From a virus, in IMG/VR virus record IMGVR_UViG_3300047284_000277, positions 1 through 22,854 of that record: a stretch of 22,854 nt of DNA, one strand, 5' to 3'. Below the pieces are notes generated by a model. It searched no databases, was not told the DNA's origin, and saw only the letters and a program-made list of their open reading frames with translations. Position numbers and translations under genes: made by a program. Positions 6,075 through 21,926 of this stretch are shown piece by piece; the first letter of the stretch is position 1; each line of letters starts with the position of its first letter.

Positions 6075-7049
6075 TTAGCCCTTGTAGAAGAAGCCCTCAA
6101 CGAGAGCCTCCGGCTTCACGACCTTGTAGCCGTACACGTTCAAGCCACGGATGATGTTGCCGAACGTAGAGGTGCTACGCAGGGTCTCCATCTTCGTGAT
6201 CTGAGACGCGAACGTGATCGCATCGCGGGTGCCAGCGAAGCAGCTAAACGCCTTCACGCTGGTATCCGTGCCTTCGCCCGTGATGCCAGTCTGCGACGGG
6301 AGCAGGTTGCTGACATACAGGGTGAAGCGATCGATCATGCCGAGGCGGCCATTGCGCAGCGGCGAGAGCGAGTCGTTCGTGATCGAGGCATCCTTGAGGT
6401 CGGAGGTCTTGATCTTCGACGCCATCCACGCCGGGATGACGACCCAACGGCCGTCTTCCGGAGCGTTCTGCTCGTCCAAGCACTGACCCATCGAGATCAA
6501 GTAGTCGATCACGTTGGTCGAGGTGACCTTACGGGCAGCCTTCGATCCACCGGTCGACACACCGAGGTTGAGGTCGCCAGAGATCGCACCGGCAGCCGCA
6601 CCCTCGTTGGCCGAAGCCGACGCGCCCACGAGCGCACCCAGCACGTCCGTGTCCACAGCGATCTTCATCTGCTGCGAGGCATCGTTCGTGAAGATGTCCA
6701 TGAGCTTGAGGTCAGACTGGATGTCGTCCACATCGTCGACCACGACCGAGAAGTACTTGCCCTTGTCGATCAACAGCTCAACAACGTCGTTCGTCGGGGT
6801 TTGCGGCGTGAGAACCTGACCCTTCGAGTAGTTGTTGATCGTGACCGTCGGAACCGTGCGGATCTCGACCTTGTCGCCTTGGTCGCGGATCTCACCTTCC
6901 CAGTCGTTGTTCGTGATGTCAGACAACACCGTCGTCTGATAGAACTTGACCTGAAGCTTCCCTGACCAAATCTCAGGAATGAACTTGCCGGTGTAGGCAT
7001 CGACGCCAGAGCCAGCGCCGTAGTAGTTACCACTTACTGCGAGAGACAT
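6075..7049 (-). CDS. Major capsid protein, 324 aa
   Basis: The 324-aa protein starts MSLAVSGNYYGAGSGVDAYT and has the layout of an HK97-fold coat protein of the podovirus/P22-like kind. An early segment reads FIPEIWSGKLQVKFYQTTVL, then DKVEIRTVPTVTI, an alpha-helical spine beginning near residue 110 (DVDDIQSDLKLMDIFTND), a Gly/Ala-rich mobile loop around 145-170, and WVVIPAWMASKIK. The end, IIRGLNVYGYKVVKPEALVE, is a strongly recurring C-terminal pattern in such coat proteins. It directly follows the acidic scaffold gene and is followed by a hairpin, the usual context of a highly expressed capsid gene. The ribosome site is AAAGGAAAC upstream of the ATG at 7049. Confidence 0.92.
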   Translation of the reverse strand: MSLAVSGNYYGAGSGVDAYTGKFIPEIWSGKLQVKFYQTTVLSDITNNDWEGEIRDQGDKVEIRTVPTVTINNYSKGQVLTPQTPTNDVVELLIDKGKYFSVVVDDVDDIQSDLKLMDIFTNDASQQMKIAVDTDVLGALVGASASANEGAAAGAISGDLNLGVSTGGSKAARKVTSTNVIDYLISMGQCLDEQNAPEDGRWVVIPAWMASKIKTSDLKDASITNDSLSPLRNGRLGMIDRFTLYVSNLLPSQTGITGEGTDTSVKAFSCFAGTRDAITFASQITKMETLRSTSTFGNIIRGLNVYGYKVVKPEALVEGFFYKG

Positions 7050-7087
7050 ATTAAGTTTCCTTTAAGTTGACTTTGCCGGGTAGGGGG

Positions 7088-8053
7088 TTATCGCAACCGA
7101 CCTTCTACCTGAGCGGCAAAGATATCTTTCTCAATCCTCTGCGCCTCTTCCGGTGAATACACATTGCGACGCAGGTCGGCGTAGAAACGCGCAACTTCTG
7201 CATTGCTATATATCTTCTTACCTTGCGGGGGAGGAGTCTTGCCGGTTGTTTTCGGCACTACCTGATCCGCAAGATTCGGCTTCGGTGCAAGAGGTTCCTT
7301 TTTCTGAACGCCCTCGTTATAAGCGTTGAAGAAGTTGGCGACTCGCCACGCATCTAACTTTGCATAAGCGTCGTCGAACAATGACTGGCGCTGCTGGCCG
7401 GTGTAGGGATCAAGTTCCCCAAGCCAATCCAGAAACTCCTTGTCCGTGTTCAGCGACTCCCAAGTGGGAGATAACCCAACAAGCTCATCAAAGAACCGCT
7501 TGCGTTCAAGCTGGCTGTTCGTGTTGCGCAACTCATTGACCGTCGAACGCAGCTCCTCGACATCGGAAGGAACAACCTCCTTGGCTGCTCGCTTCACAAA
7601 GTCGACAAACTTCTCGCCATACTCAGCGACTTCTTCAGGCTTGACCAAGGTCTCGGCCTTTTGAGTCTGAACTGGCTTCTGCTCTGCGGCTTTCTTGAGG
7701 TCTGCTATCTCAGCCTTGAGAGAGCGAATCTCTGCCGCATATCGCGGAACTTCAGCGGAGTACTTGTTAGCAAGTACCTTGTACTTCTGTTCCCAGCTTT
7801 TATCGTTCGGGTCAGCATCAGGGAATTTAGGTTTCGGCTGATCATCAGCGTTTTCCGGCTTAGCCTCGGCGGGAGCCGCTGCTTCCGGAGCGCTTTGCTC
7901 AACTACCTGTTCCTCTGAAGGAGCGACAACCGTTTCCGGCTTCGCGGGTTCATTGCCTTCTGGAGCCGATTGCTCGGTATTCCTGTAGAGCTTGTTATAC
8001 ATCTCATCTGCAAGTTGTGACTGCTTCTCAACTACCTTATTAACGCGGGGCAT
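7088..8053 (-). CDS. Capsid scaffolding protein, 321 aa
   Basis: The protein is highly charged, with an Ala/Pro/Glu-rich low-complexity N-terminal third (residues about 25-90), a predicted coiled coil around 95-190 (AAEIRSLKAEIADLKKAAEQ and SDVEELRSTVNELRNTNSQL), and a helical C-terminal end with YSPEEAQRIEKDIFAA. There is no membrane segment or catalytic motif. Such composition immediately upstream of the coat gene, with a gap of only 38 bp, is typical of phage scaffolds that direct procapsid assembly and leave before packaging. The basic C-terminal helix may bind coat subunits, as in P22, but that is inference. The start at 8053 has GGAG about eight bases upstream. Confidence 0.85.
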   Translation of the reverse strand: MPRVNKVVEKQSQLADEMYNKLYRNTEQSAPEGNEPAKPETVVAPSEEQVVEQSAPEAAAPAEAKPENADDQPKPKFPDADPNDKSWEQKYKVLANKYSAEVPRYAAEIRSLKAEIADLKKAAEQKPVQTQKAETLVKPEEVAEYGEKFVDFVKRAAKEVVPSDVEELRSTVNELRNTNSQLERKRFFDELVGLSPTWESLNTDKEFLDWLGELDPYTGQQRQSLFDDAYAKLDAWRVANFFNAYNEGVQKKEPLAPKPNLADQVVPKTTGKTPPPQGKKIYSNAEVARFYADLRRNVYSPEEAQRIEKDIFAAQVEGRLR

Positions 8054-8138
8054 TTAACACTCCATGAGCCGACCTTCGCGCAAGAGAGCCTATCGGTGTT
8101 CTCTGCCTACGATCCGGTATTCAGGCTGTTACTTAACT

Positions 8139-8177
8139 CCGGATTCCTCCGGTCTCGAATACTAGGATTTCCTAGTA
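8139..8177 (-). other. Two consecutive hairpins between the 66-aa gene and scaffold gene
   Basis: TACTAGGA-TT-TCCTAGTA (8160-8177) is a perfect 8-bp inverted repeat that contains the last codons and the stop of the 66-aa gene. CCGGA-TTCC-TCCGG (8139-8152) follows it downstream in the minus direction. Neither has a U-tract, so I read them as possible RNA-processing or transcript-stabilising structures ahead of the scaffold/capsid genes rather than clear terminators. The rest of the 108-bp gap down to 8054 shows no gene. Confidence 0.45.
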
Positions 8178-8362
8178 CCCATCTGTACGACATCACGCAA
8201 TGCTTGGCAGTAGCCCTGAAGCTTGTTTACTTGGAGCGCCACCGTAGCGTCTTCCAGTTCCACAAGCCTCGCATCACGCAATGCCGATAGATATGAAACG
8301 AAAATCTGAAAGTCTGAGTCGGCACTCAGGCGCTTCAGAGCCTCTTTGGTTCTTTGATCCAT
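8162..8362 (-). CDS. Hypothetical small helical protein, 66 aa
   Basis: The sequence begins MDQRTKEALKRLSADSDFQI and ends ALRDVVQMGTRKS. It is predicted to be wholly helical and has no membrane segment. Small proteins with this ending are seen between portal and scaffold genes in several phages, without known function. The ATG shares a base with the stop of the 116-aa gene (TAATG), which makes it a convincing gene despite its size. The stop codon lies inside a perfect 8-bp inverted repeat. I do not assign a function. Confidence 0.7.
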   Translation of the reverse strand: MDQRTKEALKRLSADSDFQIFVSYLSALRDARLVELEDATVALQVNKLQGYCQALRDVVQMGTRKS

Positions 8363-8712
8363 TAGAAGCTAGGCGTTCCCTTCTTGAACGACTGCTTCTG
8401 CCACATGAAACGATCGTAATGCTTGGGCATCTCGCCAACCATTCCGCCATTAGCTTTTCTAACGCCCATAGCAGAAGCGCCAAATCCTTCGATAGGCTCC
8501 TGCTCTTCGATGCGATCGGCCTCGGCAGCGCCTTCGGCCATGGCATTCGTTGCAGCAGGAGCGGCAACCGGAGCAGCAGCATCCTTCTTTTTGCTAAGAA
8601 GGGACTGATACATCTCGCGGTCGAGCTTGCGATCTTCGCGACGCTCTTGCTCCTGCTTGTAGCCTACATAGCCGCCAAGCAGCCCTGCGGCGACATTACC
8701 TAACTTGCTCAT
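8362..8712 (-). CDS. Hypothetical protein with Gly-rich N-terminus, 116 aa
   Basis: The N-terminus MSKLGNVAAGLLGGYVGYKQ is Gly/Ala-rich and mildly hydrophobic and could be a short amphipathic or membrane-associated helix. A strongly charged helix follows (EQERREDRKLDREM), then an Ala/Pro linker (residues about 45-60), and a C-terminal part with GVRKANGGMVGEMPKHYDRF. The 'KANGGMV' element recurs in small phage structural-region proteins. The start ATG overlaps the portal stop as ATGA. It may be a minor head or ejected internal protein, but this is only a guess from location between portal and scaffold. Confidence 0.68.
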   Translation of the reverse strand: MSKLGNVAAGLLGGYVGYKQEQERREDRKLDREMYQSLLSKKKDAAAPVAAPAATNAMAEGAAEADRIEEQEPIEGFGASAMGVRKANGGMVGEMPKHYDRFMWQKQSFKKGTPSF

Positions 8713-10652
8713 TGCATTACTCCTTGGGGTTGCATCTGCTCGGGCGGCATCATTTCAGGTTGCTGAGGCTGCTGAGCCATCTGTTCGCTTAAAATCTTCT
8801 GCACTTCCGCGATCTTCTCGGGGTCGGGAATGATCTTGTCGATGTCCATGTTCAATGTCTTTGCCGCCTCGCGCAGAAGCATTGCACGGCCACTCGGCCC
8901 CATGATCTGGATGTCCACCGGGTTGGCTGTCATCTGCAAGAACTCGTTACGTCGCTGCTGGACAGACTCCTTGAGCAGCGTACCAACGACGCCAGCAGGA
9001 ACAATCTGCATGTCGCCCTTGATCGACGAATCGTCGTCGTAAATCATGATGTGATCATACAGGCGCTGCAGCACTTCCGTGTTGGCAGTATCCAAAGCAA
9101 GGATAGCCTGCTTGATTCCCTTAGCGGCATTCTCCATCAGCATCGAGAGACCAGACGCAGTGCGTCCGGCTCCAGACATCTGGCCGCTGCCGTAGATGTA
9201 GTTCGGCACACCGGTCACTTCGTCAGCTACTCGCTGGAAGTGCTGGTACACACCAAGCAAAGTGTTGGCATTCATGTCCGGCTGGAAGAAGCGGATAGCA
9301 GGCTGGCCACCGCCAGTACGGTCAGAGGTCGTCTGCCATATCTTCCACGGATACATCTTCGTGAGGTCTTCGCCGTCAGGGAGGCGATCCACGCTCACTT
9401 CAACCTGCGGCCCAGAGGCGATGCCCATGTTGTTAGCCAGCGCACGGGCTGCAGCATTACAGACCGTCTGAACGTCGGTCATCATCTCAGGCAGGGCAAG
9501 ACCCCAGAAAGCGCCGGGGATCGACTCCCAAGAAGCCTTCGAGTACGGGCGACGGGACAGCGGGTCAGGATTCTTAACGCACTTGATGACGTAGCTACCG
9601 ACCTGCCACACGCAGACTTCGTACTCGCGGTAGTCCTCGACATCGTCCATGCCCCACTCGCGGAGCATGTAGCCAGAGACAGAGCCCCAGAACTCGATGC
9701 TCTCGATCAGCTCAGTTCCGACCAACGTGTTGTTGCGGCCTTCGAGCAGGTTGCGCTCCGTGTCGGACTGGGTCAGCTCACGCAGACCGCTGTTGCCGTA
9801 GGTACGCAGCACTTGGTCGATGGCATCGACATTGAAGCTGGGCGAGTTACGCAGATCTTCGAGGTCGGCTCGGGTGAGCTGGTGGCGCTCGATGATGTAG
9901 CCGTCTTGAGTATTAGACGCATTGGGAGACGGGAAGATGTCGTACGGCGATACGCGCTCGAAGTCTTCAACGATCTCGTCGGTCACAACCGGAGTCCAGT
10001 TCTTACCCCAGCTCAACTTCTTCTTCGTGCGAACAACCGGGCCTTTGATGAAGGCAGTCGGGTACGTGCAGAAGTCGTAGATAACTTCAGAGAGAACCGT
10101 GTTGAACTTGGACTGCTGCATCTTATCGAGGATGCGCTTCTCCATCTTGAGAGCTGCTTCCTTCGAGCGATCCATGAGGCGCTTCTTAACTTCCTCGTAG
10201 ATCTCTTCCATCCGCTTTTCAATCGTCTGCGGATTGACGCCAATGCCAGCGCTCTGCACTTCATCGGCCTCTGCCGTGACAGCCTCGATGATCTCGTTAC
10301 GGAGTTCATCAGGCACAGAAGGCTCGGCAGTCGGAGTCAGGCTCCACGGCTTCTCGCCAGAAGACAGCATGACATCCTTGATCCAGCTCTCAGCCGCACG
10401 GCACTTGATGTCCGTGAGCATCATGTAAATATCAGAGCCGCCGGTCTGGCGAATCATGGCCAGCTTGTCAGGATCGTAGACTCCACGACGCTGGCGCTCA
10501 GAGCGCAGCAGTCGCTCGGTTACATCAGACTTAGCGGTCTTTGCTTCCTCATAGCAACGACGGACGTATCCCGCAAGCGACAATACGACCGGCTCATCGG
10601 AGATGGCCGACTCTTCTTGCGCTTTTCGTAACTTGACCGAATTAAGTGCCAT
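8709..10652 (-). CDS. Portal protein, 647 aa
   Basis: At 647 aa this matches the usual size of podovirus portals. The N-terminal helical region reads YVRRCYEEAKTAKSDVTERL, followed by SDIYMMLTDIKCRAAESWIK, a crown/clip-type helix pair near residues 80-105. Later come FERVSPYDIFPSPNA (about 240), ALPEMMTDVQTVCNAAARAL, GVPNYIYGSGQMSGAGRTAS and LSMLMENAAKGIKQAI, the 'GxxxxxGRTASGLSMLM' pattern being characteristic of portals. The C-terminus is a Gln/Pro/Met-rich tail. It forms the dodecameric DNA-entry ring and docks the terminase, which is encoded immediately upstream with a three-base gap. The ribosome site is poor, so translation is probably coupled to terminase. Confidence 0.93.
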   Translation of the reverse strand: MALNSVKLRKAQEESAISDEPVVLSLAGYVRRCYEEAKTAKSDVTERLLRSERQRRGVYDPDKLAMIRQTGGSDIYMMLTDIKCRAAESWIKDVMLSSGEKPWSLTPTAEPSVPDELRNEIIEAVTAEADEVQSAGIGVNPQTIEKRMEEIYEEVKKRLMDRSKEAALKMEKRILDKMQQSKFNTVLSEVIYDFCTYPTAFIKGPVVRTKKKLSWGKNWTPVVTDEIVEDFERVSPYDIFPSPNASNTQDGYIIERHQLTRADLEDLRNSPSFNVDAIDQVLRTYGNSGLRELTQSDTERNLLEGRNNTLVGTELIESIEFWGSVSGYMLREWGMDDVEDYREYEVCVWQVGSYVIKCVKNPDPLSRRPYSKASWESIPGAFWGLALPEMMTDVQTVCNAAARALANNMGIASGPQVEVSVDRLPDGEDLTKMYPWKIWQTTSDRTGGGQPAIRFFQPDMNANTLLGVYQHFQRVADEVTGVPNYIYGSGQMSGAGRTASGLSMLMENAAKGIKQAILALDTANTEVLQRLYDHIMIYDDDSSIKGDMQIVPAGVVGTLLKESVQQRRNEFLQMTANPVDIQIMGPSGRAMLLREAAKTLNMDIDKIIPDPEKIAEVQKILSEQMAQQPQQPEMMPPEQMQPQGVMQ

Positions 10653-10655
10653 GTT

Positions 10656-12098
10656 TTATACCCAACCGCCTGTGGTTGCTTCTTTGATAACTTTTCGACG
10701 AACAGGATTCATCTCGTGGCGCATGTGCAGACAGCCATATTGTAAGGCGTCGTGTACGTGCGAGAACTTGTCCTTAACTGGACGATCCTTGAACTTCGTC
10801 GTACCTGATGACCGGATACGCTCATAGCGGTATCCACCGTTGAATCCTTTGCGCAGCATCTTGCAGTCAGGCCCAAGCACAAAGCCGGGGCCGCTCGAAG
10901 ACATGCGCTGAAGGAAGAAGGCCACGCTTTCTCGACGGGCCAAGAACTCGTTTGTCGGCGCTGGTTCACAGATCAAGCCAAGCGACAGAAGTTCCTGCAT
11001 GCAGGTCTTCTCGTCAGTCTGCGCTCGAATGTTGCCAGCAGGATCTCCCACTGCTTCGAGTCTGCAGCGAGAGTACTTCTGCATAATGAAAGGCCTGACG
11101 ACTTCTGAGTAGAACTGGCGGATGCCCATGTCCTCAGAGACAAGCTCATCGAGAATGAGGAGCTGCCCCTTCGGGGACATCTGCAAGAACACACACGCAG
11201 GAGTCAGGCCGAAGTCAAACGACAGGATGACCGGCATACCATCGACCGGTGTGAGAGGAGTCTCACTAAAGTGTTCCTTGTCGCTCCACTCCGGATAGAC
11301 GGGCTTACCGTCCATCGTCGTGCCATAGTCCCCGAGAAGGAAGACCTTGATCCAGTCATCGGTTTTGCCAGCCACCTGATTCAGGTAGTACTGGTAACCG
11401 AGGCTATGGTTCTGGATGTTCTCCGCCTTCGGGTTTGGAATGTACTCCATGAAGGTCTCGGACTTTTCGTCCAAGTCCTGCATGAGGCCTCCGGGCTGGC
11501 GAAAGAACTTATAGCCTTTGGGGCGATCTTCTTCGGCCAGCTTATACCACCAAGAATCATCGTCCGGTGGGTTGGTATCCATGATCACGCCAGTCCACGA
11601 AGGGCCGCCTACGCGCTTTGATGGGAAACGACCCACGCGCTGCGTACACATATCGAGTACTGACTTATCCATCTCAGAGGCTTCGTTGATCCACGCGCCA
11701 GTGAGTTCGAGAGAGCGGAGCTTGTTTACATCTTCCGGTCTATCGATAGCGATGAAGAGAACTTCGATCTCAAGACCAGTGCCATCACCAATGTCATCGA
11801 TGTTGATCATCGAAGTAATTGGCGTGTCCCACTTCATAACCGCAATGTCCTTCATCCAGTCCATCCACGTTTTGATCGTGGTCGACTTGAGTTCAGGATA
11901 GGTGTTACGCAGTGCAGCCCATCGAGAGCGACGGATTCCATCTGGCCCCGGCAGCTGTCGTAAGCCGCGAACCAAGATCTCGTAGCAGCAAGCTGTGGAC
12001 TTTCCAGAACCTACCGGCCCCATCAGTCCACGGACGAACGAGTCATCCAGATGGAAGGCCTCCGAAGAGGGGCCGGGAGGGATATAGCTGATCTCCAT
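10656..12098 (-). CDS. terL: Terminase large subunit, 480 aa
   Basis: This is the packaging motor ATPase-nuclease. Walker A is GPVGSGKST at residues 27-35. Walker B ends AWINEAS with catalytic E139. The coupling motif region is MDTNPPDD (about 173-180). The nuclease domain shows its three acidic ligands at D295 (SFDFG), D352 (GDPAG) and D450 (HVHDAL). An LRNTYPELKSTT segment (63-74) is also typical of the family. Length is normal and no key residue is missing. The gene is coupled at both ends: its ATG overlaps the upstream stop (TAATG) and portal follows after three bases. Unusually, its small-subunit partner is about 3.9 kb upstream, separated by lysis and phosphoesterase genes. Confidence 0.95.
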   Translation of the reverse strand: MEISYIPPGPSSEAFHLDDSFVRGLMGPVGSGKSTACCYEILVRGLRQLPGPDGIRRSRWAALRNTYPELKSTTIKTWMDWMKDIAVMKWDTPITSMINIDDIGDGTGLEIEVLFIAIDRPEDVNKLRSLELTGAWINEASEMDKSVLDMCTQRVGRFPSKRVGGPSWTGVIMDTNPPDDDSWWYKLAEEDRPKGYKFFRQPGGLMQDLDEKSETFMEYIPNPKAENIQNHSLGYQYYLNQVAGKTDDWIKVFLLGDYGTTMDGKPVYPEWSDKEHFSETPLTPVDGMPVILSFDFGLTPACVFLQMSPKGQLLILDELVSEDMGIRQFYSEVVRPFIMQKYSRCRLEAVGDPAGNIRAQTDEKTCMQELLSLGLICEPAPTNEFLARRESVAFFLQRMSSSGPGFVLGPDCKMLRKGFNGGYRYERIRSSGTTKFKDRPVKDKFSHVHDALQYGCLHMRHEMNPVRRKVIKEATTGGWV

Positions 12099-16979: not shown

Positions 16980-17152
16980 TCACCACTGGCCTCCCAGACG
17001 GGCCACTCAAACAAAGGTTCTGGTGCCGGATGAGCGCAAGCAGCCCGGCGGCTCCCACAAGGGGAGTCCGGCCTAAAGCAGACCAGTATCTGCCCAATCT
17101 ACCGGGAAGCCTTGATTCAGTAGAGTGCCTTCGATGAGGGCACTGCACTGAG

Positions 17153-17183
17153 TCAACAACTGTCAACAACAACGGAGACTGTC
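17153..17183 (+). repeat. AACAAC leader repeat with ribosome site, copy A
   Basis: The 31 bases before the ATG at 17184 begin TCAACAACTGTCAACAACAA and end CGGAGACTGTC. They match copy B (17493-17523) at 28 of 31 positions with identical spacing to the start codon. GGAG is the Shine-Dalgarno. The A-rich CAA string upstream may enhance ribosome binding or serve as a regulator site. Confidence 0.8.
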
Positions 17184-17492
17184 ATGAACTACGCAAACCA
17201 CATTGGCTACAGCGACGTGAACCCCTTCGAGATCGTCCGTCGCGTGAGCGATAAGACGCTGGAGATTCGCTCGATGAGTGCTGAGCGTGACCCCTCGTGG
17301 AAGCCGGACTTCATACCCGGCGGATTTAGCGGCACGGTGGTCAACCAGTCATCGCAGCGCTGGATCATCTCTAGCGACGATCAAGCCGTCACGTTCCGCA
17401 TCCGGATGGGCAAGCGCGGCTGGCGCGACTCTGGCGGCAACCGCTATGAGCTTTCGGATAAGCCGGTCAAGTTCTACGACTACAACTTTTGA
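17184..17492 (+). CDS. Conserved phage protein of unknown function, 102 aa
   Basis: The sequence starts MNYANHIGYSDVNPFEIVRR and contains RSMSAERDPSWKPDFIPGGF, then SQRWIISSDDQAVTFRIRMG, and ends GWRDSGGNRYELSDKPVKFY plus a short aromatic tail. I recognise this family ('HIGYSD..P.E.…AERDP..KPDF.PGGF.G…W…R..GWR...G.RY.LS..P..FYDYNF') as common in phage early regions, with no known function. It looks like a compact mixed alpha/beta protein with many aromatic residues and no membrane segment. It is the first gene of the rightward operon and has the strongest copy of the repeated leader. Confidence 0.85.
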   Translation: MNYANHIGYSDVNPFEIVRRVSDKTLEIRSMSAERDPSWKPDFIPGGFSGTVVNQSSQRWIISSDDQAVTFRIRMGKRGWRDSGGNRYELSDKPVKFYDYNF

Positions 17493-17523
17493 TCAACAAC
17501 TGTTAACAACAACGGAGAATGTT
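17493..17523 (+). repeat. AACAAC leader repeat with ribosome site, copy B
   Basis: The 31 bases begin TCAACAACTGTTAACAACAA and end CGGAGAATGTT directly before the ATG at 17524. They start within the bases following the previous stop. Together with the two preceding bases, GATCAACAACTG is shared with copy C at 17893. Differences from copy A are confined to three positions. Confidence 0.8.
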
Positions 17524-17688
17524 ATGAAACTTCTGCTAGTCGCTTTCTTCCAGCTTCTCGCCATGGTCGAGATGGCCCTTGGCGTTCTGATCGCCGCTGA
17601 GTCGGGCGGTGTTGGCATCTACTCGCTGATCGCGGTAGCAGCCGCGCTCGTTTGCCTTTTGTCAGCCAATGAGGTGGCCAAGTCATGA
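17524..17688 (+). CDS. Tiny membrane protein, 54 aa, two hydrophobic segments
   Basis: The start at 17524 is fixed by GGAG and the repeated leader. The protein begins MKLLLVAFFQLLAMVEMALG and continues VLIAAESGGVGIYSLIAVAA, giving two hydrophobic stretches (about 2-24 and 30-48) separated by a short polar turn, then a NEVAKS tail. A hairpin insertion in the inner membrane is likely. The stop overlaps the next ATG (ATGA). I do not recognise the family. Possible roles include membrane stress, superinfection exclusion or anchoring of the downstream ATPase system; all are speculative. Confidence 0.75.
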   Translation: MKLLLVAFFQLLAMVEMALGVLIAAESGGVGIYSLIAVAAALVCLLSANEVAKS

Positions 17689-17894
17689 ACTACGAAAAAA
17701 CGATTCCCGAGACGCTGACTGACAGCGATGTGGTGTCGCTGCTTGAGGGCTTACGCGCCAAGCGCAGAGCTGAGTCTGCCGACATGGCAATGGCGATGGG
17801 ACTTGCGCTGGCGTCTCACTTGGATGCCATTGGCATGAGCCGCGAGGCCGGTGAAGTCGAAGCAATCGTCAGTCGCGTCATGGCAACTTTCTGA
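17685..17894 (+). CDS. Hypothetical helical protein, 69 aa
   Basis: The protein opens MNYEKTIPETLTDSDVVSLL and continues EGLRAKRRAESADMAMAMGL, ending in SRVMATF. It is predicted to be mostly helical, with an Ala/Met-rich middle that is amphipathic rather than a clear membrane span. The start overlaps the stop of the 54-aa membrane gene (ATGA), so translation is coupled. It is followed by the third leader repeat. I do not recognise a family or function. Confidence 0.7.
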   Translation: MNYEKTIPETLTDSDVVSLLEGLRAKRRAESADMAMAMGLALASHLDAIGMSREAGEVEAIVSRVMATF

Positions 17895-17915
17895 TCAACA
17901 ACTGAGGCAACAACT
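17895..17915 (+). repeat. AACAAC leader repeat, copy C
   Basis: TCAACAACTGAGGCAACAAC plus one T leads directly to the ATG at 17916. The usual GGAG is absent here; GAGG between the two AACAAC halves, eight bases before the ATG, probably acts as Shine-Dalgarno. The match to the control-region copy at 16945-16965 is very close. Confidence 0.7.
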
Positions 17916-18179
17916 ATGAACATCATCGAATCTGTCGACCAGCTTGGTTCCCTTAACGCCCAAATCGCGGCGCTCTCGAAACAGGCTGATGCCATCAAGT
18001 CCCAGCTACGCAAGTCGGGTGCTGGCGAGTATCGCGGCTCCCTGTTTCGGGCTGTCGTATCGGAGCGCTCAGCGAGCCGTATCGACTCCGAGAAGGTGCG
18101 CAACCTGCTGAGCGAGGAGCAACTGGCCGAAGTGATATCGGAAGTGCGCTCGACCAGCGTATCCCTGTACGACCTGTGA
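17916..18179 (+). CDS. Conserved phage coiled-coil protein of unknown function, 87 aa
   Basis: The N-terminal half is helical (SLNAQIAALSKQADAIKSQL, about 12-31), followed by GAGEYRGSLFRAVVSERSAS and an ending LSEEQLAEVISEVRSTSVSL. The pattern 'L..QIA.L.K.AD.IK..L...GAGEY.G..FRA.VS…R…D...V...LS...…T.V…' is one I have seen in early regions of many phages. Function is not established; a nucleic-acid-binding or inhibitor role has been suggested for such small proteins only by context. Length is typical. No membrane segment is present. Confidence 0.82.
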   Translation: MNIIESVDQLGSLNAQIAALSKQADAIKSQLRKSGAGEYRGSLFRAVVSERSASRIDSEKVRNLLSEEQLAEVISEVRSTSVSLYDL

Positions 18180-18187
18180 GGTGACCT

Positions 18188-18280
18188 ATGGAAGCTTTTC
18201 TGTTCTACGCCGTACGCATGTGGCTTGCCGCCGTCATGCTCGTCGCCGCCTACTTCATTGCAACCTATTCGGAGGAATGA
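18188..18280 (+). CDS. Membrane microprotein, 30 aa
   Basis: A very short frame starts at ATG 18188 with GAGGTG six to seven bases upstream. The product starts MEAFLFYAVRMWLAAVMLVA and ends in AYFIATYSEE. It is almost entirely one hydrophobic helix with an acidic tail. Its stop lies two bases before the next gene's ATG, and its last codons (TCGGAGGAATGA) supply that gene's Shine-Dalgarno. This tight arrangement, good ribosome site and membrane-like composition make it a real gene candidate despite its size. Function is unknown. Confidence 0.6.
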   Translation: MEAFLFYAVRMWLAAVMLVAAYFIATYSEE

Positions 18281-18282
18281 TC

Positions 18283-18450
18283 ATGGACAACAAAGCTGAA
18301 CTCGAACGAATCACCGAAAAGCTGCAGAGCATGCTCGATCGTAATGAGTTGCCCAGCAAGGCAGCTTTGGAGTCTTTTTTCCGGTATGCCTACCAGCTTG
18401 GCCACTTCGATGGCCACATTGCTGGCGTCAAGTTTGCCACCAACAGCTAG
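18283..18450 (+). CDS. Hypothetical small protein, 55 aa
   Basis: I choose ATG 18283, with GGAGG seven bases upstream inside the preceding microprotein; the frame stays open upstream to 18181, but that extension overlaps the microprotein and reads as Arg/His-rich shadow sequence. The product begins MDNKAELERITEKLQSMLDR and ends LGHFDGHIAGVKFATNS. The first half is an amphipathic helix; the second half has the aromatic segment FFRYAYQLG. No family is recognised. It lies 84 bp before the ATPase gene. Confidence 0.72.
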   Translation: MDNKAELERITEKLQSMLDRNELPSKAALESFFRYAYQLGHFDGHIAGVKFATNS

Positions 18451-18461
18451 ATCGAAACGCC

Positions 18462-18498
18462 ACGTCGGGAGACGTTGCGTCTGCCTGTCATTCAGGCA
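18462..18498 (+). other. Two small hairpins upstream of the ATPase gene
   Basis: ACGTC-GGGA-GACGT (18462-18475), with a GNRA-type loop, is followed by TGCCTG-TCATT-CAGGCA (18482-18498). Both are perfect inverted repeats, with no U-tract after them. They sit between the last small gene and the leader of the ATPase gene and may be RNA-processing or stability elements. Confidence 0.4.
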
Positions 18499-18507
18499 CT
18501 GATGAGA

Positions 18508-18534
18508 TCAACTACAACAACTGTGGAGACTGTT
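18508..18534 (+). repeat. AACAAC leader repeat with ribosome site, copy D
   Basis: TCAACTACAACAACTGTGGA followed by GACTGTT leads to the ATG at 18535. The final GGAGACTGTT matches copies A and B almost exactly, while the upstream CAA string is shorter. It fixes the ATPase start and rules out the longer in-frame opening. Confidence 0.7.
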
Positions 18535-19749
18535 ATGCTTAATTCACTTTCCAAGGCCCAGCTCGTCGAGCTGGTTCGTCGCGCCACTGGTTCAGCCGGT
18601 GACTACGCTCGCAAGTCCAAGCAGGACTACATCGAGCAGGTGTCCCAGCTTCCTGACGAGAAGCTCTCTGAGGCGCTCTTGTCGATGGGGCTGATATCGG
18701 GTTCCCTCGCGCCGATCGTGGCCAATAAGCCTTCTGCGGAGCCTGAGCAAGCTGTCGACGTTAAGGTCGTGGCTCGCAAGTCCCTGAAGGACGTTTTCGG
18801 CATTCGCGGCAAGCATGGTCAGGCCATGGTCGATGTCTACGATGACCCTGCAGCCCCTGCTCTCGACCCGCTGTACAAGTTCAACCCGGAACAGTTGTTC
18901 ACTGCTGTGACGGCGATCAATCGCAATCGCAACGTGTGGCTGGCTGGCCCTGCTGGCACCGGTAAGACGGAGTTCGTCAAGAATCTGTGCGCTGGCCTTG
19001 GCCGTGCGTTCGTTCGCGTGAGCTTCGACTCTGGCGCTGAGCGCTACGAGTTTATCGGCGGCGAGCGAGTCAAGAACGGCAGCACGTACTACCAGCGAGG
19101 CATCGTGCTTCGAGGCTTTACCCGCCCCGGCGCGATCGTCCTGCTGGACGAGGTGTCGTTCGCTCGTCCGGAGTACTTGTCTGCGCTACACGCGCCGCTC
19201 GAACCCGAAGGCGTCGTTGCCGTGCCAGAGACTGGCGAAGTGATTCGCAAGGCTCCGGGCGTCGTGTTCTTCGCTGCGGACAACTCGAACGGGCGAGGCG
19301 ACTACACCGGCATGTACGTCGGTGTGCGTGAGCAGAACGTCGCGTTCGTCAACCGCTTCGCTCGCACTATCGAGTTCAAGTACATGGACGAGGACTCTGA
19401 GTCTGACGTGATCAGCAAGCGAGCCGGTGTCCACATCGAGCTTGGCCGACTGATCAGCAAGCTCATGAACGTCATGCGTCAAGCCGGTGATTCGAGTCAA
19501 CTCGATCACGTCCCGACTCTGCGTGAGGCGTTCTACCTTGCCGAAGCTCTGGTCGACGGCGTCGATCCTCGAATCGCGTTCGAGCAGACGATGGTCAACC
19601 GTGCTTCGCAAGAGTCGCGTGAAGTCCTGCAGCAAATCTGGAAGGCGAACATGTCGAATGCTGCTATCGCTAGCGCGATCGACGGTATCCCGCCTGTTGT
19701 CGTGCCGGTCGTTGACCCGGCTGCTGTAACCCCGCCAGAGGCGGCCTAA
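18535..19749 (+). CDS. MoxR/CobS-type AAA+ ATPase, 404 aa
   Basis: The N-terminus (about 1-52; LSKAQLVELVRRATGSAGDY) resembles a SAP-like or Rho_N-like helical domain that often binds nucleic acid. The AAA+ core spans about 110-300: Walker A GPAGTGKT (138-145), Walker B IVLLDEVS (201-208; D205, E206), sensor-1-like N250 in FFAADNS, and arginines in NRFAR (273-277) as candidate arginine fingers. The C-terminal helical lid ends in a Val/Pro-rich tail. CobS/MoxR proteins form hexameric rings that remodel a partner through a VWA protein, and the next gene is exactly such a partner, 16 bp downstream. No motif is missing. Actual target is unknown. The start is set by leader copy D. Confidence 0.9.
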   Translation: MLNSLSKAQLVELVRRATGSAGDYARKSKQDYIEQVSQLPDEKLSEALLSMGLISGSLAPIVANKPSAEPEQAVDVKVVARKSLKDVFGIRGKHGQAMVDVYDDPAAPALDPLYKFNPEQLFTAVTAINRNRNVWLAGPAGTGKTEFVKNLCAGLGRAFVRVSFDSGAERYEFIGGERVKNGSTYYQRGIVLRGFTRPGAIVLLDEVSFARPEYLSALHAPLEPEGVVAVPETGEVIRKAPGVVFFAADNSNGRGDYTGMYVGVREQNVAFVNRFARTIEFKYMDEDSESDVISKRAGVHIELGRLISKLMNVMRQAGDSSQLDHVPTLREAFYLAEALVDGVDPRIAFEQTMVNRASQESREVLQQIWKANMSNAAIASAIDGIPPVVVPVVDPAAVTPPEAA

Positions 19750-19765
19750 GTTATTCGGAGGCAAT

Positions 19766-21727
19766 ATGAAAAAGGTTAAGTCTGCGGCAGTGAAAGCCGC
19801 CGCTCTGAGTCATGCTCGCAAGCAGCTCCGGGCGATCATTGGCAGCGATGCCGTCGGCATCAACTGCGGTAGCGTCGACTTCAAAGGCCAGATTTCGTAC
19901 GCGCAATGGGCGCTGTCGGCAGACCGCTCGTCAATCGCGTCATTCCACATCAACTACCCGGACATGCCGGATAACTCGTGGCTCACACGGCGTGACGCTG
20001 ACTTGATCAGCGCCTACACCAATCACGAGGTGGGGCACGTCGCGTTCACCAACAACCTCGAAGTGCGCGGCGCTAGCCACCTACTCCGTACGTTGTGGAA
20101 CGGCATTGAGGACGCTCGCATCGAGCATGCGGTTGCATTGTCTGGACGAGCCAATGGCGCTCGCTCTGGGTTCAAGCAACTGCTGTCATCGATGACTGCG
20201 AAGATCAGCGACCGCTTCAATCCGACGAGCATCAACAGCGCACCGTTCGCGCTGGCGCTCATCTGCCGTGCAGCCTACGGCGACGGCAATGGATACGCCA
20301 AGAAGCTGCTCGACCGCATTCCGGAGCCGAAGCGTTCGGTCTACAAGGCTGCTGCAGACGGCGTGATCAAGCTTCCGCTCGATCGCTCTGGCACTGCAGG
20401 GGCGCTGGCCCTTGCTCGCGAGTTCATCGAGAGCTGGTCGCGCATCGAGCCTCTCGATGTCAACGATCAACAGCACAAGCAACAGCCGGAACAGTCGTAC
20501 AACTTCGACGATCAAGACGATGACCAGTCTGACGATCAAGACGATAGCCAGACCGACGGTGAAGATGCTCTCGACCAAGAGGCTGAGAACGAGCTTGCTG
20601 CTGCCGAAGATGAATCGGAAGCTGGCGAAGTGTCCTCCGCCGGTAGCTTCGAGCCTGTCGACATTGACGAGGCTTCGGAAGGCTCCTCTGGCGAAGGCAA
20701 CGAAAACTCTGAGATGTTTGCTGAGCAGACTGAGAACTACAGCGAAGAACTGTGCAAGTCTCCGGAGCCTAGCATCGACGAGGTGTTCGACAGAGTCCGG
20801 TCTCGTGTTGAGCGATGCATCACGCTGCCGGTCACGCCGAAGGTGCCGGTCACTCGCATGTCCCAGTGGGCATCGATCAAGCAGAAGCAGGGCGATGAAG
20901 CTGCAGTGCGTCGCGCATTCCGCAAGCTCTCGAAGGCGTCGCTTCCTGCACTGAAGGCACAGTTGTACCAAGTGCTGAAGTCGCCAGAGCGAGTCGGCTG
21001 GGACGGCGGGTCTATCGGCGGTCGCTTCGACTCACGTCGAGCGCCACGCATGATGGCTGGCAGCGAGGCTGTCTTCAAGCGTCGCTGGTTGAGCGAAGGC
21101 ATCGAGACTGCTGTGACTGTTCTGGTCGACATGTCTGGCTCGATGAGAGGCGATCGAGCGAAGGACGCCTCTGAGCTTGCTTGGACGATTGCTCAAGCTG
21201 CTGAGTCTGCAGGTGCCATGGTCGAGGTCGCCGGGTTCCGTAGCCCAAGCATGGGCGAACACGTTATCCGCAACAGCGGGTTCAGCTTGTTTGGCGAGTT
21301 CAACTCTGGCACTGGCTATGACGGCATGCAGGGCGTGTTGGTAATCGCTAAGCAGTTCAACGAGCGCTGCAATGCAGTGCCTCTGAACTTCGCCAAGCTG
21401 CCGTCGATGTCAACGGGCAACACTCCGGACTACACCTGCCTTCGGGCGGCTGTTGAACGGCTGTCGACTGTTGATGCCAACCGCCGCATCGTGATCGTTA
21501 TCACCGACGGGTTTGGTGAGCGCACCAAGGTCAAGCTGATGACCTGCGTGAGCAAGAACCTGTTCGATGTTGAGGTTGTCGCATTCGGCATCGGCACCTG
21601 CGACGAGGAACTCAAGATGGCCTACAACGTAGGCGCTGCTGTTCGTCGGAGCGATGACCTTGCCGCTGTGGCGCTGAAGAAGATCATCAAGCAGCTCAAG
21701 GCCAGCGATCATCGTCGGGTTGCCTAA
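19766..21727 (+). CDS. CobT-like protein with HExxH and VWA/MIDAS domains, 653 aa
   Basis: Three parts are visible. The N-terminal domain (about 1-230) carries NHEVGH (H87-E88-x-x-H91) followed by WNGIEDARIE (111-120), a zinc-peptidase-like pattern with E115 as possible third ligand; CobT-type proteins keep the 'EDARIE' element. A very acidic linker follows (about 245-330, rich in Asp, Gln and Glu). The C-terminal VWA domain (about 445-645) has MIDAS D455-M-S457-G-S459, GNTPD (551-555) and ITDG (D581). Such proteins work with the MoxR/CobS AAA+ ring encoded just upstream. No CobN-like chelatase subunit is present, so cobalt chelation is unlikely. The start has GGAGG upstream at 19756-19760. 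A hairpin follows the stop by a few bases. Confidence 0.9.
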   Translation: MKKVKSAAVKAAALSHARKQLRAIIGSDAVGINCGSVDFKGQISYAQWALSADRSSIASFHINYPDMPDNSWLTRRDADLISAYTNHEVGHVAFTNNLEVRGASHLLRTLWNGIEDARIEHAVALSGRANGARSGFKQLLSSMTAKISDRFNPTSINSAPFALALICRAAYGDGNGYAKKLLDRIPEPKRSVYKAAADGVIKLPLDRSGTAGALALAREFIESWSRIEPLDVNDQQHKQQPEQSYNFDDQDDDQSDDQDDSQTDGEDALDQEAENELAAAEDESEAGEVSSAGSFEPVDIDEASEGSSGEGNENSEMFAEQTENYSEELCKSPEPSIDEVFDRVRSRVERCITLPVTPKVPVTRMSQWASIKQKQGDEAAVRRAFRKLSKASLPALKAQLYQVLKSPERVGWDGGSIGGRFDSRRAPRMMAGSEAVFKRRWLSEGIETAVTVLVDMSGSMRGDRAKDASELAWTIAQAAESAGAMVEVAGFRSPSMGEHVIRNSGFSLFGEFNSGTGYDGMQGVLVIAKQFNERCNAVPLNFAKLPSMSTGNTPDYTCLRAAVERLSTVDANRRIVIVITDGFGERTKVKLMTCVSKNLFDVEVVAFGIGTCDEELKMAYNVGAAVRRSDDLAAVALKKIIKQLKASDHRRVA

Positions 21728-21893: not shown

Positions 21894-21926
21894 GGGGTGG
21901 GGAGGCAACTCCCTGCCCCTTTTTTT
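21894..21926 (+). terminator. Rho-independent terminator of the rightward operon
   Basis: GGGGTGGGGAGGCAACTCCC then TGCCCC forms a GC-rich imperfect stem around a GCAA loop, followed by seven consecutive T residues. The T-tract touches the stop codon of the converging zinc-finger gene. This is the clearest intrinsic terminator in the window and should prevent rightward transcription from entering the opposing genes. Confidence 0.8.

Follow-up and report, generated by a model that had tools for sequence, protein, structure and literature searches.

A phage CobS/CobT-like gene pair that probably encodes an ATP-driven protein-remodelling machine with a predicted metallopeptidase domain

Pairs of cobS and cobT genes have been described in tailed viruses of eight host orders, for which use of the host's CobN was proposed and the name "peptidase" of a cyanophage protein was called a mistake (PMC8651126). 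Viral cobS has repeatedly been interpreted as phage influence on vitamin B12; it counts as one of the viral auxiliary metabolic genes conserved worldwide, and was detected at 75% of the water stations in the Baltic (PMC9301287). Group 2.2 jumbo phages carry a MoxR-vWA pair with an N-terminal metallopeptidase, and a role in virion assembly was proposed for it (PMC7824862). A pairing like that of the locus described here is not unusual, given that cobST pairs (PMC8651126) and MoxR/metallopeptidase-VWA pairs (PMC7824862) are both in print, the former from many viruses and the latter, with the present architecture, from jumbo phages. What is new here is an active-site split between the CobT proteins of mobile elements and those of cells, and the uniting of viral cobST with the jumbo-phage MoxR-vWA-peptidase descriptions.

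The window, by which we mean the whole stretch of DNA analysed, is a linear fragment of 22,854 bases from a virus. Its minus strand carries tailed-phage genes, for a major head protein, a portal/head-tail adaptor, both terminase subunits (large and small), an endolysin and tail proteins, in agreement with the phage origin assigned to it earlier; a DNA similarity search found no phage matches to the window. The CobS-like and CobT-like genes are on the plus strand between two minus-strand blocks, 3' of a run of small open reading frames (Table 1). A 99%-identical contig overlaps the window and extends beyond its end, where, past a RusA-like gene at the window's edge, it carries HNH, DnaB-like helicase, replication initiator and exonuclease genes. 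Comparison with four relatives gave dN/dS values of 0.14-0.23 for the CobS-like gene and 0.23-0.33 for the CobT-like gene, and both are therefore under purifying selection. Similar leaders, of the form CAACAAC...GGAGACTGT[C/T]ATG, precede the first small plus-strand gene (17150-17186) and the CobS-like gene (18509-18537). We also noted a plus-strand open frame of 526 aa at 9051-10631, antisense to the portal-like gene, which is probably a by-product of base composition.

Table 1. Features of the locus, with positions counted along the window
Feature	Position	Strand	Evidence and remarks
Small ORFs upstream of the pair	17184..18450	+	102, 69, 87 and 89 aa; PHROG matches to unknown-function families only
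CobS-like MoxR-clade AAA+ ATPase, 404 aa	18535..19749	+	ATG start, GGAG upstream of 18535; AAA_5, PHROG_249 and TIGR01650 matches
Walker A GPAGTGKT, residues 138-145	18946..18969	+	G138, G141, G143 and K144 invariant in 7 diverse phage sequences
Walker B LLDE (D205, E206)	19141..19152	+	D205 and E206 invariant in 7 phage sequences
Sensor-1 N250	19282	+	Intact; invariant in 7 phage sequences
Arginine finger R274	19354..19356	+	Invariant in 7 phage sequences
Sensor-2 R330	19522	+	Intact; invariant in 7 phage sequences
CobT-like protein, 653 aa: predicted zincin-type N-domain, acidic linker, VWA domain	19766..21727	+	ATG start, GGAGG upstream
Predicted N-terminal zincin-type metallopeptidase domain, residues 1-235	19766..20470	+	AlphaFold2 pLDDT 94.8, pTM 0.91; VIA-align
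HEVGH, residues 87-91, candidate zinc-binding/catalytic motif	20024..20038	+	H-E-H conservation
N-x2-ED-x3-E (N112, E115, D116, E120), candidate third-ligand helix	20099..20125	+	Conservation; D116 or E120 as ligand
Acidic low-complexity linker	20471..20920	+	35% D+E in residues 236-340
MIDAS DMSGS of VWA domain, residues 455-459	21128..21142	+	D455, S457 and S459 invariant in 7 phage sequences
Terminator-like hairpin 3' of the cobT-like gene	21894..21919	+	11 pairs then T-run; consensus match only, in a region with fewer such sites than its shuffles

The first gene matches Pfam AAA_5 (6.9e-15), TIGR01650 CobS (3.9e-26), the CobS structure 9ujv in the PDB (8e-26) and, over residues 102-355, the phage CobS-like profile PHROG_249 (7.5e-50). 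An in-frame TTG at 18475 is an alternative start that would yield a protein of 424 aa. Profiles and motifs together identify the product, at the level of sequence, as a MoxR-type AAA+ motor. The earlier reading of this place as a CobS-like ATPase with intact motifs next to a CobT-like VWA protein with an intact MIDAS agrees with the open reading frames, the profiles and the individual residues, and the state of the ATPase in relatives, which that reading had left for checking, proved sound: its key residues are the same in all seven diverse phage sequences.

In several relatives (L230, L233, L235, L006 and L007) the N-terminal end of the CobS-like gene has possible zinc-finger (ROS_MUCR-like) or helix-turn-helix segments before the AAA+ domain. 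Profile matches of this kind, HTH in Syn19 and ROS_MUCR in Rhizobium Y2_11, SSU5 and hairong, were all below the Pfam cut-offs, and a Pfam search of the window's CobS-like protein found no DNA-binding-like N-terminal end. With sub-threshold matches elsewhere and none in the window, we dropped this feature.

The second gene matches CobT_C (1.1e-5), TIGR01651 (2.1e-12) and phrog_1576 (2.2e-25). In its VWA domain, D581 (21506) and G582 are invariant in the seven phage sequences along with the MIDAS residues. Among four relatives the N-domain and the VWA domain are conserved to the same degree, and the acidic linker is the least conserved part (identity 0.32-0.68). Alignments and the structural model together show a CobT-like protein in which a predicted zincin-type peptidase domain at the N-terminus is joined through an acidic tether to a VWA/MIDAS domain at the C-terminus.

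The AlphaFold2 model of the N-domain was built from a 39-sequence alignment, and in it HEVGH falls within a predicted helix (residues 75-94). A Foldseek search of the PDB with this model gave no match at E < 0.001. With VIA-align, zincins filled nearly all of the top rows at Z scores of 5.0-6.7, all of them weak, being below Z 8: the DUF885 protein 3iuk (6.7), the zinc peptidase 3c37 (5.9), aminopeptidase N (5.5), aureolysin (5.5), selecase (5.4), DPP III (5.4), ZMPSTE24 (5.0) and thermolysin (5.0), with jannalysin also among the top rows. SprT and IrrE matches in the viral library were weak. Each structural match is weak alone, and the argument for a zincin-type fold lies in their agreement and in the position of the motif in a predicted helix.

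To examine the active site without selecting for the motif, we used CobS to retrieve viral loci and then read the adjacent CobT. Single CobS queries were used, the diversity of alignments A1 and A2 being too great for pattern scans. The first seven phage sequences all share H87, E88, H91, N112, D116 and E120, and the same six residues plus E115 are invariant in 39 N-domains from the viral collection. HExxH is present in the 120 viral CobT-like proteins with a complete N-terminal end that were fetched in this way; the single apparent exception was L033. In that record (894-2505) the CobT-like gene is split over two frames and the first piece has HEVGH, which points to a frameshift or a sequencing error.

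We then placed mobile-element and cellular proteins in a common alignment of 249 proteins, with 120 mobile-element rows (one of them from a plasmid), the majority retrieved via CobS, and 126 cellular rows, the latter comprising 80 Rhizobiales-type proteins, 41 drawn more widely from one phylum and 5 belonging to a second cellular clade. H87-E88-H91 is found in 119 of the 120 mobile-element CobT-like proteins versus 0 of the 126 cellular CobT, where position 87 is never H and is instead S, A, Q or G; these rows are not independent, and reducing the 109 usable viral N-domains at ~82% identity leaves 56. D116 follows the same split (119/120 versus none, with mostly Q in cells). E120 is present in 120/120 mobile-element rows, and E115 and E120 are found in nearly all rows of both kinds. 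The second cellular CobST group (L266-L270), also without HExxH, scores ~205-276 bits, well below the CobT equivalog cut-off.

The sole exception among the 120 mobile-element rows is Pseudomonas phage hairong (L235, 6741-8819), which retains CobS and the MIDAS and has SEIAK at the motif. Since hairong keeps the pair without the peptidase motif, at least one lineage manages without peptidase activity. This favours a pair that remodels without cutting, its N-domain only binding, zinc-bound or not, as does the fact that CobT functions in cells with an N-domain that has the same predicted topology but is degenerate. In zincins, however, the Glu of HExxH is catalytic rather than structural, and here E88 is kept along with the other residues of the H, E, H, D, E set across deep divergence (119/120), so we regard a purely binding role as rather unlikely. 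The first-pass annotation had proposed a remodelling chaperone. Remodelling stands, but "chaperone" alone is too narrow; it overlooked the N-terminal zincin-type domain with its conserved H-E-H-D-E, and a remodelling peptidase appears to fit sequence and model better.

The domain also bears on the cellular proteins. A model of the Sinorhizobium CobT N-domain (30 relatives; pLDDT 90.7) has its helices and strands in the same order as the phage N-domain, with weaker zincin matches (best Z 5.2, to selecase), and profiles connect the phage and cellular N-domains (TIGR01651 at positions 25-293; PF06213 in CRP-810). From the shared predicted topology and these profile links, the N-domain of cellular CobT appears to be a degenerate copy of the phage one. 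We infer that the peptidase was lost in cells, a direction read against a CobS tree that is unrooted and has several long branches.

The kinship with CobS and CobT is real, and for some other carriers the hosts may have CobN, the Synechococcus elongatus and Haloferax volcanii controls being positive; a phage CobST that joins the host CobN and boosts cobalamin synthesis, as proposed in PMC8651126 and assumed when cobS is called an auxiliary metabolic gene, has to be weighed on these grounds. We searched for CobN with PF02514 and found none in the window, as the first-pass annotation had stated for the 22.8 kb, though the record is a fragment and a CobN may lie elsewhere in this phage. Going further, the overlapping contig and 23 related records from phages, viruses and plasmids (25 in total) also yielded none. 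As controls, the search detected CobN in both bacterial genomes with CobST that were searched. The window's proteins score far below the equivalog cut-offs, at 92 bits versus 558.55 for TIGR01650 and 46.6 bits versus 759.05 for TIGR01651, a cut-off that a protein passes in 80 of 299 genomes of one bacterial phylum. In an unrooted CobS tree with long branches for ICP2, L273, L271 and MaeYong, 21 cellular CobS sequences (a chelatase-type sample) form one clade with 100/100 support, and the window lies outside it in a separate, starred phage clade. The pair is also present in the phage-plasmid PhiR41_1, a phage of E. coli MG1655; to our knowledge, E. coli K-12 is without a corrin pathway and MG1655 without CobN. 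De novo B12 synthesis in E. coli needed an engineered-in pathway, CobN, CobS and CobT included (PMC6249242). Together with the peptidase motif, which is retained here unlike in all cellular CobT sampled, these results make the chelatase-helper reading highly improbable, and they uphold the earlier view that the pair should not be read as a chelatase short of one subunit.

On sequence and modelled structure the pair is probably an ATP-driven protein-remodelling machine with a metallopeptidase and not a cobaltochelatase, a statement about machine class only. By analogy with CobST and MoxR-VWA systems, the VWA domain would capture a target, the ATPase ring would strain or unfold it, and the tethered peptidase would cut the strained target.

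Genomic context speaks to what such targets may be. In ICP2, T5S1, Rhizobium Y2_11, Syn19, SSU5, PhiR41_1 and hairong the pair is surrounded by genes for primase, polymerase, ligase, clamp or helicase. On the conjugative plasmid pMAQU02 its neighbours are recT, an exonuclease gene and an SSB gene, and the 20 kb read there contains no annotated virion gene. In the window's clade the pair is between terminase/lysis and replication genes, and in CRP-810 it adjoins a DNA-repair gene and an integrase; context there therefore picks no target. A tally of 68 neighbouring genes from relatives of several lineages was a mixture of terminase, endolysin, integrase and helicase and does not discriminate. 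On pMAQU02 (L229), 6284-10734 holds genes for an AAA ATPase, a hypothetical protein, a DUF3150 protein and a VWA protein with HESAH...NLIEDIRIE, adjoined by recT and the exonuclease gene. In the plasmid collection, 1025 records match the CobT-like sequence, and among the matches listed most are ~110 kb elements resembling SSU5-type phage-plasmids. A literature search found no paper on ICP2 with CobS/CobT.

Because the pair lies among replication genes in several other lineages, we favour DNA-associated targets over virion proteins, and tentatively suggest that the likeliest targets are proteins that engage DNA or the replication machinery in the infected cell. A machine that assembles or processes head or tail proteins, as proposed for the group 2.2 jumbo phages, would fit the identical domain architecture described there (PMC7824862) and the terminase and lysis genes close on the left in the window's clade. 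Set against the replication-gene positions in seven phage lineages and the pMAQU02 neighbourhood, virion assembly seems to us on the unlikely side. The small-gene operon in the window and a distribution over hosts that is wide but patchy would suit a machine directed at host defence, which would remove or cut a protein or complex of that defence. The abundance of the pair in T4-like cyanophages, where it is reported to belong to the core genome (PMC8651126), and its position in replication modules are better suited to a core function, so we give counter-defence little credence.

A wider reading, which we hold as possible though doubtful, is that the pairs of mobile elements represent an old family of AAA+-driven metallopeptidases that act on proteins associated with DNA, that cellular CobST is a recruited branch which lost the peptidase site, and that viral "cobS" is not a vitamin gene. 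If the pair is a remodelling peptidase, ecological inferences about B12 drawn from viral cobS need revision, the viral cobST and jumbo-phage MoxR-vWA-peptidase literatures describe one kind of machine, and the N-domain of the chelatase CobT gains a testable origin.

Among known systems, RavA-ViaA and other MoxR-VWA chaperones also have an AAA+ motor with a VWA cofactor, a likeness in described architecture, and we know of no metallopeptidase domain in ViaA. CobNST (CobS 9ujv, CobT 9uka; TIGR01650, TIGR01651) shares with the window a homologous AAA+ motor, the VWA/MIDAS domain and the same predicted N-domain topology; it differs in that no CobN was found here, in that H-E-H-D is kept in the window and lost in cellular CobT, and in the distance of the window's scores from the equivalog cut-offs. 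The viral cobST, including the cyanophage cobS and "peptidase" (PHROG_249, PHROG_459), are the same pair as in the window, although, unlike in the present reading, they were published as cobalt chelatase subunits (PMC8651126). The jumbo-phage pair likewise has a MoxR AAA+ protein and a VWA protein fused to an N-terminal metallopeptidase, a likeness based on the described architecture, and its kinship to CobS/CobT is unnamed in that paper (PMC7824862). The cyanophage "peptidase" Syn19_136 has HEVGH...NVLEDARIER and the MIDAS motif, and our comparison suggests that its name is apt and that viral cobST and the jumbo-phage pairs are the same kind of machine.
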